From positions 2,604,001 through 2,668,000 of the forward strand of contig NZ_JBGKAD010000001.1 in assembly GCF_041361345.1 (NCBI RefSeq): DNA of 64,000 nt, given 5' to 3'. Source of the DNA: Halobaculum sp. MBLA0147 (GTDB lineage Archaea; Halobacteriota; Halobacteria; Halobacteriales; Haloferacaceae). Made by a program: the position numbers and the translations under genes. The notes beneath the pieces were generated by a model. The model did no database searches, was not told where the DNA came from, and worked only from the letters and a program-made list of their open reading frames with translations. Every line of letters begins with the position of its first letter. The stretch's first letter is position 1. Of this stretch, positions 38,925 through 43,239 are shown piece after piece.

Positions 38925-39815
38925 ATGAGTGACCGCCGGGTCGCGCTCGTCGGTGACGACGGATCGGTCGCGAGCGCCGCTCGTGACGCCGGTGTGACGG
39001 TCACCGCGAGTGTCGCCTCGCTCGGCAGCCCCGCGATGGTCGACACTGCGACCCCACTGCCGTCGCTCCCGGTCGACGACGAGACGGACGAGGCTGACGA
39101 GACGGACGAGGTTGACGAGACGGACTGGGCGGGTCGCACGACGCCCTCTGGGACCCAGCTCCCGCTCGACGAGTCGAGCCTCGACGCGATCGTCGCCGTC
39201 GGGGAGCGGGCGCTGTGCGAGACGCTCCGGGCCGCCCCAGGTGTGCCGGTGCTCCCCGTGGCCGTCGCGGGCGAGGAACCGCCGGAGGCGACGGCCGAGA
39301 CGACTGCGACGGACGGCGACCCGATCGAGACGGCGCCCTCGACCGCACTGTCGGCGTTCGCGTCGGGCGCGGTGCGGACGGTCGACCACCGCCCGGTGAC
39401 GGTGTCGGTCGACGGGACGGCCGTCGGCGTCGCCGTGCTCGACACGGGGTTGGTGACGAGCGAGCCGGCGCGGATCTCCGAGTACTCTGTCCACGACGGG
39501 GACCGCCACGTCGAGACGGTCCGTTCGGACGCGATCGTCGTCTCGACGCCGCTCGGCTCGCGCGGTTACGGACGCGCGGCCGGCGGCCCGGTGTTGGCGC
39601 CCGGGACGGGGCTCGCGGTCACACCCGTCGCGCCCTTCGCGACCGCGGCGAGTCCGCAGGTGTTGCCCGAGACGGTCCGGCTCTGCGTCGAACGCGACGA
39701 GGGAGACGTGTCGCTGCTCGTCGACGACAGGGCCGTGGGCCGCGTCCCGCCCGAGACGCCGGTCCGTGTCGTGCCACGTGATTCCGTGGCGGTGGTGGTG
39801 CCGACGGAGGGGTGA
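38925..39815 (+). CDS. NAD-kinase-like protein lacking the GGDGT motif
   Basis: A 296-aa protein. The C-terminal half is clearly the NAD-kinase fold: ISEYSVHDGDRHVETVRSD, VVSTPLGSRGYGRAAGGPV (the conserved TPTGSxAYxxxAGG region) and VTPVAPF. The N-terminal half should hold GGDGT but reads IVAVGERALCETL, and Asp/Glu repeats (ETDEADETDEVDETD) interrupt it. Phosphoryl transfer is therefore doubtful; it may bind NAD(P) in a regulatory way. ATG 38925 lies 27 nt after CCTTTCACC. An active paralogue should exist elsewhere in the genome. Confidence 0.82.
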   Translation: MSDRRVALVGDDGSVASAARDAGVTVTASVASLGSPAMVDTATPLPSLPVDDETDEADETDEVDETDWAGRTTPSGTQLPLDESSLDAIVAVGERALCETLRAAPGVPVLPVAVAGEEPPEATAETTATDGDPIETAPSTALSAFASGAVRTVDHRPVTVSVDGTAVGVAVLDTGLVTSEPARISEYSVHDGDRHVETVRSDAIVVSTPLGSRGYGRAAGGPVLAPGTGLAVTPVAPFATAASPQVLPETVRLCVERDEGDVSLLVDDRAVGRVPPETPVRVVPRDSVAVVVPTEG

Positions 39816-40415: not shown

Positions 40416-40548
40416 CGGCCGCGGACACAACCTACTTCTCGCCACACGGCGTCGTCGGGGACGTGCCACGCCGACTGCACCGCCGCGACGGAGCGAGTGG
40501 GACCGGAGCACCGACCATCACCGTCGGAACCGACCCGAGGTGGGTCGC

Positions 40549-40731
40549 GTGACGGAGCCGCCGGCGACACCCGCGGCGACGGAACTGCGTGACGTGACCG
40601 TCGAGTTCGCCGAAGCCGCCGAGTTCTCGCGGTACGGTGGGGTCGTTCGACTCCACGACAGCGGCTGGGTGGAGGTCCCGGAACTCCGCCGTCTGTTCCC
40701 GCCGGACGCCGTCGACGAGATCAGGTACTGA
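40549..40731 (+). CDS. small acidic protein, unknown
   Basis: A 60-aa protein (TEPPATPAATELRDVTVEFA... ending DAVDEIRY). The central strands (VTVEFAEAAEFSRYGGVVRLHDSGWVEVP is the span; key residues are Tyr, His and Trp) suggest a small beta sheet, perhaps a protein-interaction module. Start GTG 40549 is likely; GTG 40540 would add three residues. It has no clear promoter of its own. Confidence 0.6.
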   Translation: MTEPPATPAATELRDVTVEFAEAAEFSRYGGVVRLHDSGWVEVPELRRLFPPDAVDEIRY

Positions 40732-40826
40732 GACCTCCTCCGGTGCGGGGATCGTCACCACACGCCGGTGTTCCGACGATCCGGCACGGCCCCGTGTGGA
40801 TTCGTCCCAGAGCCGGGCACGCCCAA

Positions 40827-40840
40827 AAGATACTTATTTC
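40827..40840 (+). promoter_or_regulatory. strong promoter before the candidate RNA
   Basis: AAAAGATACTTATT has a purine-rich BRE followed by a TATA element centred near 40836. It predicts transcription starting at about 40857-40861, where the structured segment begins, and no plus-strand gene follows for over 1 kb. Confidence 0.6.
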
Positions 40841-40856
40841 GTACCCGATCAACCCA

Positions 40857-40930
40857 GGGTGCGCGCCGTGAGGCGCGGTCCCCGGCACCGTGCCGGGCAG
40901 CTAGCACATGGTCGGGCTGGCATCCCACAC
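40857..40930 (+). ncRNA. candidate structured RNA, tRNA-sized, not a tRNA
   Basis: About 70 nt that fold by hand into a closed multi-branch. The closing stem pairs GGGUGC (40857-40862) with GCAUCC (40920-40925). Hairpin 1 pairs GCGCC/GGCGC (40863-40876) with a GUGA tetraloop. Hairpin 2 is the near-perfect palindrome CCCGGCAC-C-GUGCCGGG (40881-40897). A weaker third arm pairs CAGC/GCUG (40898-40919). The T-loop and anticodon-U signatures of a tRNA are absent. Frames across it are short and unlike proteins. Flanks 40732-40826 and 40931-41063 show nothing. Confidence 0.5.
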
Positions 40931-41063
40931 CACTGCCTTCTGCACACGACACGAGACCACGAGCCACGGAGCCGTCGGGCGAGACGGCCGTCTCCGATCG
41001 GCGGTGACGCGCTCTGACGAGCGACGGTCGCTCGCGGGCGACGGTCTCCGATGAGCGACGGTA

Positions 41064-41960
41064 CTACTCTGCGAGCGACTCGTAGGTGTCGCGGACTGTC
41101 TCGGCGAGGAGTCCGTCGCGTCTGAAGACGACGTAGACGACGACGAACGCGCCGTCGACTGGACGCAGGACGAACACCTCCCGCGGCGGAAGACCGTCGG
41201 TCTCGGACACCGCGTCCCCACCACGCTCCGTGCCGTCACCGGCCGCGGCCGTCGCGTCCTCGTCGGCTTGCTCCGTGCGGTCTCCGGCAGACTGCTCCTC
41301 GTCGCCACTGGCGGCCGTCTCCTCGTCCGCCTGTGGGAGTCGCGAGGCGAGACTGCCGGCCGCGAACGACCCACCGTCGGAGCCCCCCACTCTCCCCGCG
41401 CCCGCAGCCTCGGCTCCTCCCTCCCTCTCATCCTCACCCTCGTCGCCCTCGCGCGCGGCCGCAGCCTCGTCGACACGCTCGACGAGTGGGTCGATCGGCC
41501 GGCGACCGCTCCGGAACTCGTGGAACACGTCCCGGCCCGCGGGGTCGCCGAACACGTACAACGAACCGTTCGGCTCGCCGTCCGTGTCGCGGGTGACGCG
41601 AGCGTTCACGGCGTCGCCGTCGCGGCGTGCCGCCTCCCACGCGTCGCGTGCGGCTTCGAACAACCCCTCGACCTCGTCGGCGAACCGGAAGCGTGTGCGC
41701 CGCTCGACGGACAGCGTCTCGAAACTCGCGGTCGCGTCCGGGCCGGTCCAGTCCAGCGTCGCGGCCACGCGGTTCCCCGTCTCCAACTCGGCGACGGTCT
41801 CCGCGAGCGCCCCCTCGTAGCCGTCTGCGGCCACGACGACCGGCTCGTACGCCTCCGCGGGGTCGTCCGTCTCCGCACAGTCGATCAACACGAACGCGGA
41901 TTCCCCGTCGCGGGTGATCCGGGCGTGGACGCGGTAGCGCCCGGGAGTGTCGTCGGTCAT
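41064..41960 (-). CDS. haloarchaeal uncharacterised protein (DUF6663-like)
   Basis: A 298-aa acidic protein. The N-terminal half (RYRVHARITRDGESAFVLID, EPVVVAADGYEGAL, NRVAATLDW) and the C-terminal end (FVLRPVDGAFVVVYVVFRRDG) look conserved and beta-rich, and are separated by about 100 residues of Glu/Gly/Ala/Asp low complexity. I believe it belongs to the haloarchaeal DUF6663 group, from memory of its N-terminus, without certainty. CAGTTTGTCC lies 28 nt upstream of ATG 41960. Confidence 0.7.
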   Translation of the reverse strand: MTDDTPGRYRVHARITRDGESAFVLIDCAETDDPAEAYEPVVVAADGYEGALAETVAELETGNRVAATLDWTGPDATASFETLSVERRTRFRFADEVEGLFEAARDAWEAARRDGDAVNARVTRDTDGEPNGSLYVFGDPAGRDVFHEFRSGRRPIDPLVERVDEAAAAREGDEGEDEREGGAEAAGAGRVGGSDGGSFAAGSLASRLPQADEETAASGDEEQSAGDRTEQADEDATAAAGDGTERGGDAVSETDGLPPREVFVLRPVDGAFVVVYVVFRRDGLLAETVRDTYESLAE

Positions 41961-42170
41961 GCTACCTGGTCGGCGCCGCGCGGACAAACTGGTGTCGCTC
42001 CCGTCGCCGGGTCGCGACACCCACACTCTCGCCGCCGCCCGGCGACACCCACCTCTCCCCGTCACGTCCGCGACGACGGCGCGAGTCCACTCCCGTCGTT
42101 TCAACCTTCGGACGAGCGACGCGACGCCGCCGCCTTGTCCCGCCGTTTCACTTTCACTCTGCTGTTAACG

Positions 42171-42180
42171 GGGGTTTATG
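42171..42180 (+). promoter_or_regulatory. TATA box of radA
   Basis: GGGGTTTATG centred near 42175 predicts a start of transcription at about 42200, giving a leader of under 10 nt to ATG 42208. Confidence 0.55.
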
Positions 42181-42207
42181 TGTCGTCCCGCACCAGAGTA
42201 TGGTACG

Positions 42208-43239
42208 ATGGCAGACGACGACCTCGAAGCCCTCCCGGGCGTCGGCCCGGCGACGGCGGACAAACTCGTGGACGCAGGATTCGAGACGTACCAGAGCATC
42301 GCGGTCGCCAGCGCGGGCGACCTGGCGAACACGGCCGACATCGGCGACTCGACATCGGCAGACATCATCCAGGCGGCCCGCGAGGCCGCGGACGTGGGTG
42401 GGTTCGAGTCCGGCTCGACCGTGCTCGAACGACGCCAGCGGATCGGGAAGCTCTCCTGGCAGATCGACGAGGTGGACGAGCTCCTCGACGGCGGGCTGGA
42501 GACGCAGTCGATCACCGAGGTGTACGGCGAGTTCGGCTCCGGGAAGTCGCAGGTGACACACCAGATGTCGGTGAACGTCCAGCTCCCGCCGGAACACGGC
42601 GGCCTGGGCGGCGGCGCGGTGTTCATCGACTCCGAGGACACGTTCCGGCCCGAACGGATCGACGACATGATCCGCGGGCTCGACGACGAGATCCTCGCCG
42701 ACGAGCTGGAGCGGCGCGAGATCGAGGGCGAGCCGGGCGACGAGGAGACGATGCAGGCGCTGTTGGAGGACTTCCTCGACCACATCCACGTCGCGAAGGC
42801 GTTCAACGCCAACCACCAGATGCTGCTGGCGGAGAAGGCCGAGGAACTCGCCGCGGACGCCGAGGACACGGAGTACCCGGTGAAGCTGCTGTGTGTCGAC
42901 TCGCTGACGGCCCACTTCCGCGCGGAGTACGTCGGCCGGGGTGAACTCGCTGAACGGCAACAGAAGCTGAACAAACACCTCCACGACCTCGACCAGGTCG
43001 GGAACCTCCACAACGCCGCCGTGCTGGTGACGAACCAGGTCGCCTCGAACCCGGACTCGTACTTCGGGGACCCGACTCAGCCAATCGGTGGGAACATCCT
43101 GGGTCACAAGTCGACGTTCCGGATCTACCTCCGGAAGTCGAAGGGTGACAAGCGGATCGTCCGGCTCGTCGACGCGCCGAACCTCGCCGACGGCGAGGCC
43201 GTGATGCGCGTCGAGGACGGCGGTCTGATGCCGGAGTAG
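42208..43239 (+). CDS. radA: DNA repair and recombination protein RadA
   Basis: A 343-aa archaeal RecA/Rad51 recombinase that forms filaments on single-stranded DNA for strand exchange. The N-terminal helix-hairpin-helix domain ([20 protein letters not shown], residues about 4-23) and the linker are followed by the ATPase core: Walker [10 protein letters not shown] (about 110), VFIDSEDTF, Walker [10 protein letters not shown] (about 230), and loop L2 region around [20 protein letters not shown]. Length matches haloarchaeal RadA. ATG 42208 gives the conserved start [13 protein letters not shown]. Confidence 0.97.

Follow-up and report, generated by a model that had tools for sequence, protein, structure and literature searches.

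The window studied here, 64,000 nucleotides of haloarchaeal DNA (G000:C1:2604001-2668000), contains, between positions ~40860 and ~40937 of its plus strand, what we take with high confidence to be a genuine RNA gene whose family has not been described before. The end of the element lies seven bases beyond position 40930, where the preliminary description had placed it. That description had proposed a structured small RNA expressed from a promoter of its own; the promoter and the conserved core stood up to analysis, and the RNA structure gained the support of covariation, while the tRNA-like multibranch fold had to be given up in favor of a pseudoknot. This 3′ H-type pseudoknot (40914-40937) had been missed, being partly outside the interval then considered.

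The BRE/TATA-type promoter (CCCAAAAGATACTTATT, 40822-40838, plus strand) was read directly in the sequence and is conserved in the genus. The sequence AAAAGATACTTATT occupies positions 40825-40838, and a conserved block begins ca. 27 nt after it (counted from the TATA-box center), which agrees with the earlier remark that such an element stands at the right distance from the RNA. The CCCAAAA stretch and most of the TATA core are invariant in all four genus members; the adjacent DNA has diverged. In all four, the block starts at 40860, and 40860-40861 (plus strand) are the predicted transcription start and first RNA bases. Since an archaeal start is expected at this place for a TATA box at 40822-40838, we infer that transcription begins at ~40860.

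The 70-base core was searched for in 60 relatives and retrieved from four genus members, the genome under study included; a 33-base piece of it found in G034 was taken as a chance match. A blastn search of 170 genomes of the family (E ≤ 0.1) gave matches in 140, nearly all of them short and directed to G+C-rich stems. The short matches outside the genus were also regarded as chance; similarity over the full length is confined to the four genus members, and the remaining copies described below share mainly the 3′ domain. The four loci have identical neighbors, and the promoter and the core are nearly unchanged, while the DNA before, between and after them has diverged. Mean column identity over the 78 columns of the core is 95%, with changes mostly in the loop of hairpin 2. 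In G003, the length of this loop is altered by one base, so that any shared reading frame is broken, which argues against a coding function and against the conserved short ORF that the preliminary description would have counted against an RNA. By free energy the segment 40850-40930 does not stand out (z −0.80), since 41 of 200 shuffled sequences fold equally well. It is conservation, and not folding energy, that sets the element apart from chance.

No plus-strand gene comes next, as had been stated. The first gene on that strand is radA (42178-43239), and the gene in between (41064-42104), coding for a DUF6663 protein (Pfam PF20368, E 9.9e-38), is convergent on the minus strand, which speaks against a co-transcribed plus-strand gene. 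The RadA protein matches the Rad51 profile in two stretches, and this split suggests that it carries a short insertion. The upstream neighbor is a 63-aa ORF (40540-40731, plus strand), for which searches of Pfam and NCBIfam yielded no match; the three other genus members have it in the corresponding position, with 73-82% identity. A gene for DUF7313 occurs widely, in 50 of 60 genomes, and among 30 loci inspected it is followed by the 63-aa ORF and the DUF6663 gene only in the four genus members. In the gene at 38925-39815, Pfam recognizes only the C-terminal domain of ATP-NAD kinase. An omega RNA of the IS200/IS605 type was considered and discarded: there is no tnpB, the neighbors being the 63-aa ORF, the DUF6663 gene and then radA.

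Two hairpins of the original fold were borne out. Hairpin 1 (CGCGCC-GUGA-GGCGCG, 40862-40877, plus strand), with its GUGA tetraloop, is invariant within the genus, and hairpin 2 (CCCGGC-ACCGU-GCCGGG, 40881-40897, plus strand) shows compensatory changes. The closed multibranch drawn around them, with a GGGUGC/GCAUCCC closing stem, was ruled out because the closing bases (GGG, 40857-40859) precede the conserved block, and the other three members of the genus have GGC, GCT and CGA there. A hairpin predicted by folding at 40900-40921 (GCUAGC/GGCUGGC) was likewise rejected, and replaced by the pseudoknot, since one of its pairs is broken in G003 and it is absent from other copies.

Stem 1 of the pseudoknot pairs GGG (40914-40916) with CCC (40924-40926) across the loop CUGGCAU, as seen in two alignments, A6 and A10. 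Stem 2 pairs GGCA (40919-40922) with UGCC (40934-40937), and its core GCA/UGC is supported by covariation. Loop 3 (40927-40933) carries a conserved ACCAC, and the corresponding AYCAC is nearly invariant in both alignments. All these features are on the plus strand. An outer GUG/CAC stem around stem 1, visible by eye in several copies, is not claimed: its 3′ side barely varies, and copies such as L138 and L139 break the pairing. Just 3′ of the core, the pseudoknot module is duplicated in tandem in two genus members (L003 of G001 and L002 of G002), the second copy (CACATGGTYGGGCTGGCACCCC...) being complete in G001 and incomplete in G002.

Copies from outside the genus were collected with a pattern describing the 3′ end. 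Allowing up to three mismatches, it matched 26 places in 20 of 392 genomes of the order, versus 7 places for the reversed pattern, and most of the matches have upstream of them an A+T-rich stretch resembling a TATA box as well as one or two hairpins. Alignment A6 comprises 29 copies in 28 distinct rows; two of the 26 places (L136 and L137) were left out by eye. Its motif is GGG-CUNGYAY-CCC-NNN-AYCAC-URC, where the GYA of the loop pairs with the URC of the tail in 28 of 28 distinct rows (C-G in 19, U-A in 9). The covariation score of the pseudoknot was reached by none of 500 shuffles.

The larger alignment A10 consists of 58 copies, those of A6 included, in 56 distinct rows; these rows are related, so that the counts below are not counts of independent events. 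The middle pair of stem 2 is C-G in 27 rows and U-A in 27, and is broken in two (L175 and L212); the outer pair is G-C in 55 rows and A-U in one (L221). Stem 1 shows a single replacement of G-C by A-U (L176), and its outermost pair is C-G in 33 rows, U-A in 5, G-C in 1, broken in 3 and a gap in 14, the copy of the window being one of the gaps. Here too, none of 500 shuffles reached the covariation score, and sliding the pairing partner lowered pairing from 98.7% to at most 51%. Approximately 17 of the 24 pseudoknot nucleotides are near-fixed across unrelated contexts, loop positions included.

Covariation within the four genus members, where one hairpin-2 pair changes from C-G to U-A in G003, is not significant (101 of 500 shuffles are as good). 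Ten copies with two hairpins, from the genus, genus g6 and family f4, were compared, with the arms placed by hand. The preliminary description had looked to compensatory changes in the hairpins and in the closing stem. They were found in hairpin 2, where four of the six positions show compensatory types, all 60 cells pair and 17 of 2000 re-dealings are as good; the closing stem is not conserved. In hairpin 1, 56 of 60 cells pair, and with 340 of 2000 re-dealings as good the result is not significant alone. Since placement of arms by hand favors pairing, the hairpin covariation counts as support and not as proof. The loop of hairpin 1 is a GNRA tetraloop in 7 of the 10 sequences, and six copies from other genera have arms UGUCCC/GGGACA or similar. 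Halorussus-like copies contain one hairpin, then GUGUCUGUCAUCCC and the pseudoknot, often followed by CCCAAACUGG. A further conserved tail, CCCAAACTGG(A), is seen 3′ of the pseudoknot in several Halorussus-type copies (L125, L131, L166, L168, L170, L197 and L198). The 52 bases that precede the motif fold better, over 54 copies, than control segments do (mean z −1.31 versus −0.46; Mann-Whitney p 1.8e-4).

The covariance search in other Halobacteria, proposed earlier as a check, was carried out with two models. The first, R1, describes the 78 positions of the core; run on 167 genomes of the family (E ≤ 0.1), it matched 20, the four genus members among them, and yielded only weak matches beyond the genus. 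As judged by eye, the matches in G124 and G133 keep the layout of the core, their hairpin arms being different and their 3′ end nearly identical. Those in the other 14 genomes were taken as chance; on inspection by eye, three of the loci (L075, L077 and L080) resemble a single conserved gene for a protein. The second model, R2, describes the motif without the pseudoknot pairs and was used to widen the set. At E < 0.001 it located 54 places, distributed over 29 of 392 Halobacteriales genomes; at E ≤ 0.05, 87 of 392 genomes were matched, the weaker places being treated as background and only those at E < 0.001 being used. One match (L175, in G273) breaks the pseudoknot and may be due to chance; it is kept in the R2 and A10 counts.

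The copies are scattered, with one main copy per genus relative and several per genome in genus g44, which plasmid matches suggest to be Halorussus or a close relative. The pseudoknot, with matching base changes, is present in several haloarchaeal families. When 40 haloarchaeal copies were aligned on the motif, A+T content peaked at −85 to −80 and at −65 to −60, positions that would fit promoters of the two layouts, with one and with two hairpins. Downstream genes differ among the copies, being unrelated or on the opposite strand, and many copies face a convergent gene; both facts speak for separate small RNAs. A constant downstream neighbor, a GNAT gene, was seen only for one orthologous Halorussus copy. 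Searches of phage, plasmid and E. coli collections with viral and archaeal copies gave only Halorussus plasmids as further accepted matches.

The motif also occurs in viruses. The 24-base pseudoknot, written as the pattern GGGCTNGCANCCCNNNACCACTGC, was present in 24 IMG/VR contigs, 20 of which were also recovered in a separate search. Control patterns with a tail or loop base changed matched 1, 0 and 1 contigs, and both of these matches break the pair. Stem 1 is strictly GGG/CCC in the viral copies, as scans with a relaxed stem 1 gained no contig. Grouped by the 40 upstream bases, the 24 copies fall into 18 clusters, a few of which visibly resemble one another, and in 17 of 18 cluster representatives the pseudoknot is located between a stop codon and the following start codon. 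The products encoded downstream vary (HNH-like, portal, rIIA, ATPase or polynucleotide-kinase-like, DNA-repair-photolyase-like), and four of the nine tested gave no family match. Microcystis phage matches H4 and H5 were rejected because the AYCAC-URC half is missing. It may be that the viral motif is convergent with the archaeal one. One viral copy (L199:239-346) lies 13 bases before a tRNA gene. In L200:2270-2450 and in L201 (both IMG/VR), the motif is found within a longer, structured-looking region that is similar in both, has no Rfam match and is possibly a separate structured RNA. A borderline Rfam match to SorX in Microcystis phage Mel-JY03 (L204:3021-3104; 46.9 bits against 46.6) is probably a chance one.

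Rfam 15 gave no match at the gathering cut-off over the whole window, and neither ARAGORN nor the Rfam tRNA model detected a tRNA, in line with the original remark that, for all its tRNA-like size and shape, T-loop and anticodon features are missing. Searches of 20 haloarchaeal loci with Rfam returned only two separate tRNAs, and 11 viral loci returned nothing; from 8 further loci, two tRNAs and one borderline SorX were obtained, none of them on the motif. No Rfam guide family of the box C/D or H/ACA type reached the threshold, and C, D and k-turn motifs were not seen by eye. In open-licence PMC papers, no text with the letters of the motif was found, nor does the accessible part of these papers (PMC7247131, PMC12710915 and PMC7002113 among them) contain a description naming it. 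According to the accessible part of a study of RNA from a halite community, conserved intergenic RNAs without assigned function exist in Halobacteria (PMC7002113); the RNA at 40860-40937 may thus have been sequenced already and left unnamed.

We propose that the locus gives rise to a noncoding RNA of about 80 nt, which would be transcribed from its own BRE/TATA promoter and belong to an undescribed, patchily distributed and often multi-copy haloarchaeal family. The family would be defined by the 3′ pseudoknot, with one or two 5′ hairpins that differ between copies. Such an RNA may act in trans as a ribonucleoprotein: the pseudoknot would serve as a common handle that is bound by a widespread factor and guards the RNA against exonucleases, and the variable 5′ hairpins would give each copy a target or partner of its own. 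The intergenic pseudoknot of viruses would then be the same module employed by itself in mRNA, for stability or recognition. Taken as a whole, this account is tentative, its chances being a little short of even. Conservation of the promoter, covariation, the distribution of copies and the lack of a common downstream gene are read from sequence, and the trans-acting, handle-plus-variable-arm step is suggested by analogy.

A broader statement can be made about the pseudoknot itself. Possibly, and with somewhat less assurance than the account above, its 24 nucleotides constitute a single undescribed module of archaea and bacteria with a universal partner (the ribosome, RNase P, an exonuclease or a common ligand). 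Haloarchaeal small RNAs would end in the knot and carry interchangeable 5′ hairpins, and bacterial viruses would carry the bare knot between genes.

The chief rival sees in the pseudoknot a processing signal, recognized and cleaved by a universal RNase, of which RNase P is the most plausible. Cleavage would define the ends of the small RNAs in haloarchaea and divide polycistronic mRNAs in viruses. We consider this unlikely, even though the nearly invariant ACCAC of loop 3 is RCCA-like, the viral copies are mostly intergenic and one of them just precedes a tRNA. As far as the accessible text of PMC12710915 describes it, RNase P RNA, bacterial and archaeal, cuts a pseudoknot with a 3′ GCCAC trailer, so that a pseudoknot with an RCCA motif is a known type of substrate; however, the trailer of the substrate tested there is at the 3′ end, whereas ACCAC is internal here, inside the knot and between the stems. 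Furthermore, stem 1 is short, at 3-4 pairs. RNase P is not known to need the degree of invariance seen in the loop-1 CU and in stem 1, which is strict in viruses.

Somewhat less likely again is a catalytic or ligand-binding role, the pseudoknot being the core of a self-cleaving ribozyme or of an aptamer, with an origin or a spread in haloarchaea and in viruses of bacteria. In its favor are the near-fixed nucleotides, loops included, in unrelated contexts, the scattered distribution and the strict GGG/CCC of viral stem 1. However, no known ribozyme or riboswitch model matches, the haloarchaeal copies lack a consistent regulated gene, and the 24-nt core is shorter than any natural ribozyme we know of. 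We attach the same low probability to a cis-regulatory leader of the downstream gene. Viral copies do precede start codons, and five orthologous Halorussus-type copies are found 105-132 nt upstream of the GNAT gene, the same arrangement being present in H. limi and H. aquaticus; against this, the next gene is convergent in the window and in three relatives, and other copies are followed by genes that have no relation to one another or lie on the opposite strand.

A conserved DNA element, such as a binding or replication site, would be consistent with very high full-length conservation limited to the genus, but it is highly improbable given the preferred spacing to TATA-like boxes, the covariation in hairpins and pseudoknot, and, in G128, a U-G pair of hairpin 1 that on the other strand would be a C-A mismatch. 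A short protein-coding gene or a chance structure is hardly credible: the ordinary free energy and ORFs of 55-126 aa that cross this G+C-rich region in several frames would allow it, but base-level invariance combined with a 1-nt change of loop length and covariation in both kinds of structure argue against it.

A small RNA with its own promoter and a 3′ pseudoknot can be compared with several known systems. The frameshift pseudoknot of BWYV, a luteovirus, likewise has a short stem 1, a 3-nt loop 1, a 3-bp stem 2, a one-base junction and an A/C-rich loop 3 of 7-8 nt; unlike the BWYV element, the present motif is located outside coding sequence, and its conserved sequence is different. Exonuclease-resistant RNAs are arranged in tandem in some viruses, as the motif is in G001. 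In the accessible part of PMC7603331, flavivirus RNAs of this kind are compact pseudoknots able to stop an exonuclease, the likeness seen being one of compact, knotted form and not of sequence. The haloarchaeal RNAs sRNA132 and s479 of Haloferax volcanii are also small and intergenic, and by the descriptions available they are thought to act on mRNAs; by the same descriptions they are single RNAs, whereas the family reported here has many copies with a common 3′ pseudoknot.

The family is new to Rfam, no match having been obtained on the element in the window or in 39 related loci, and covariation-supported structures are, to our knowledge, rare among haloarchaeal small RNAs. The occurrence of one short, near-fixed motif in RNA genes of archaea and in viruses of bacteria points to a common partner. 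Since the motif is small, probing, structure determination and pull-down would be quick, which makes its function directly testable.
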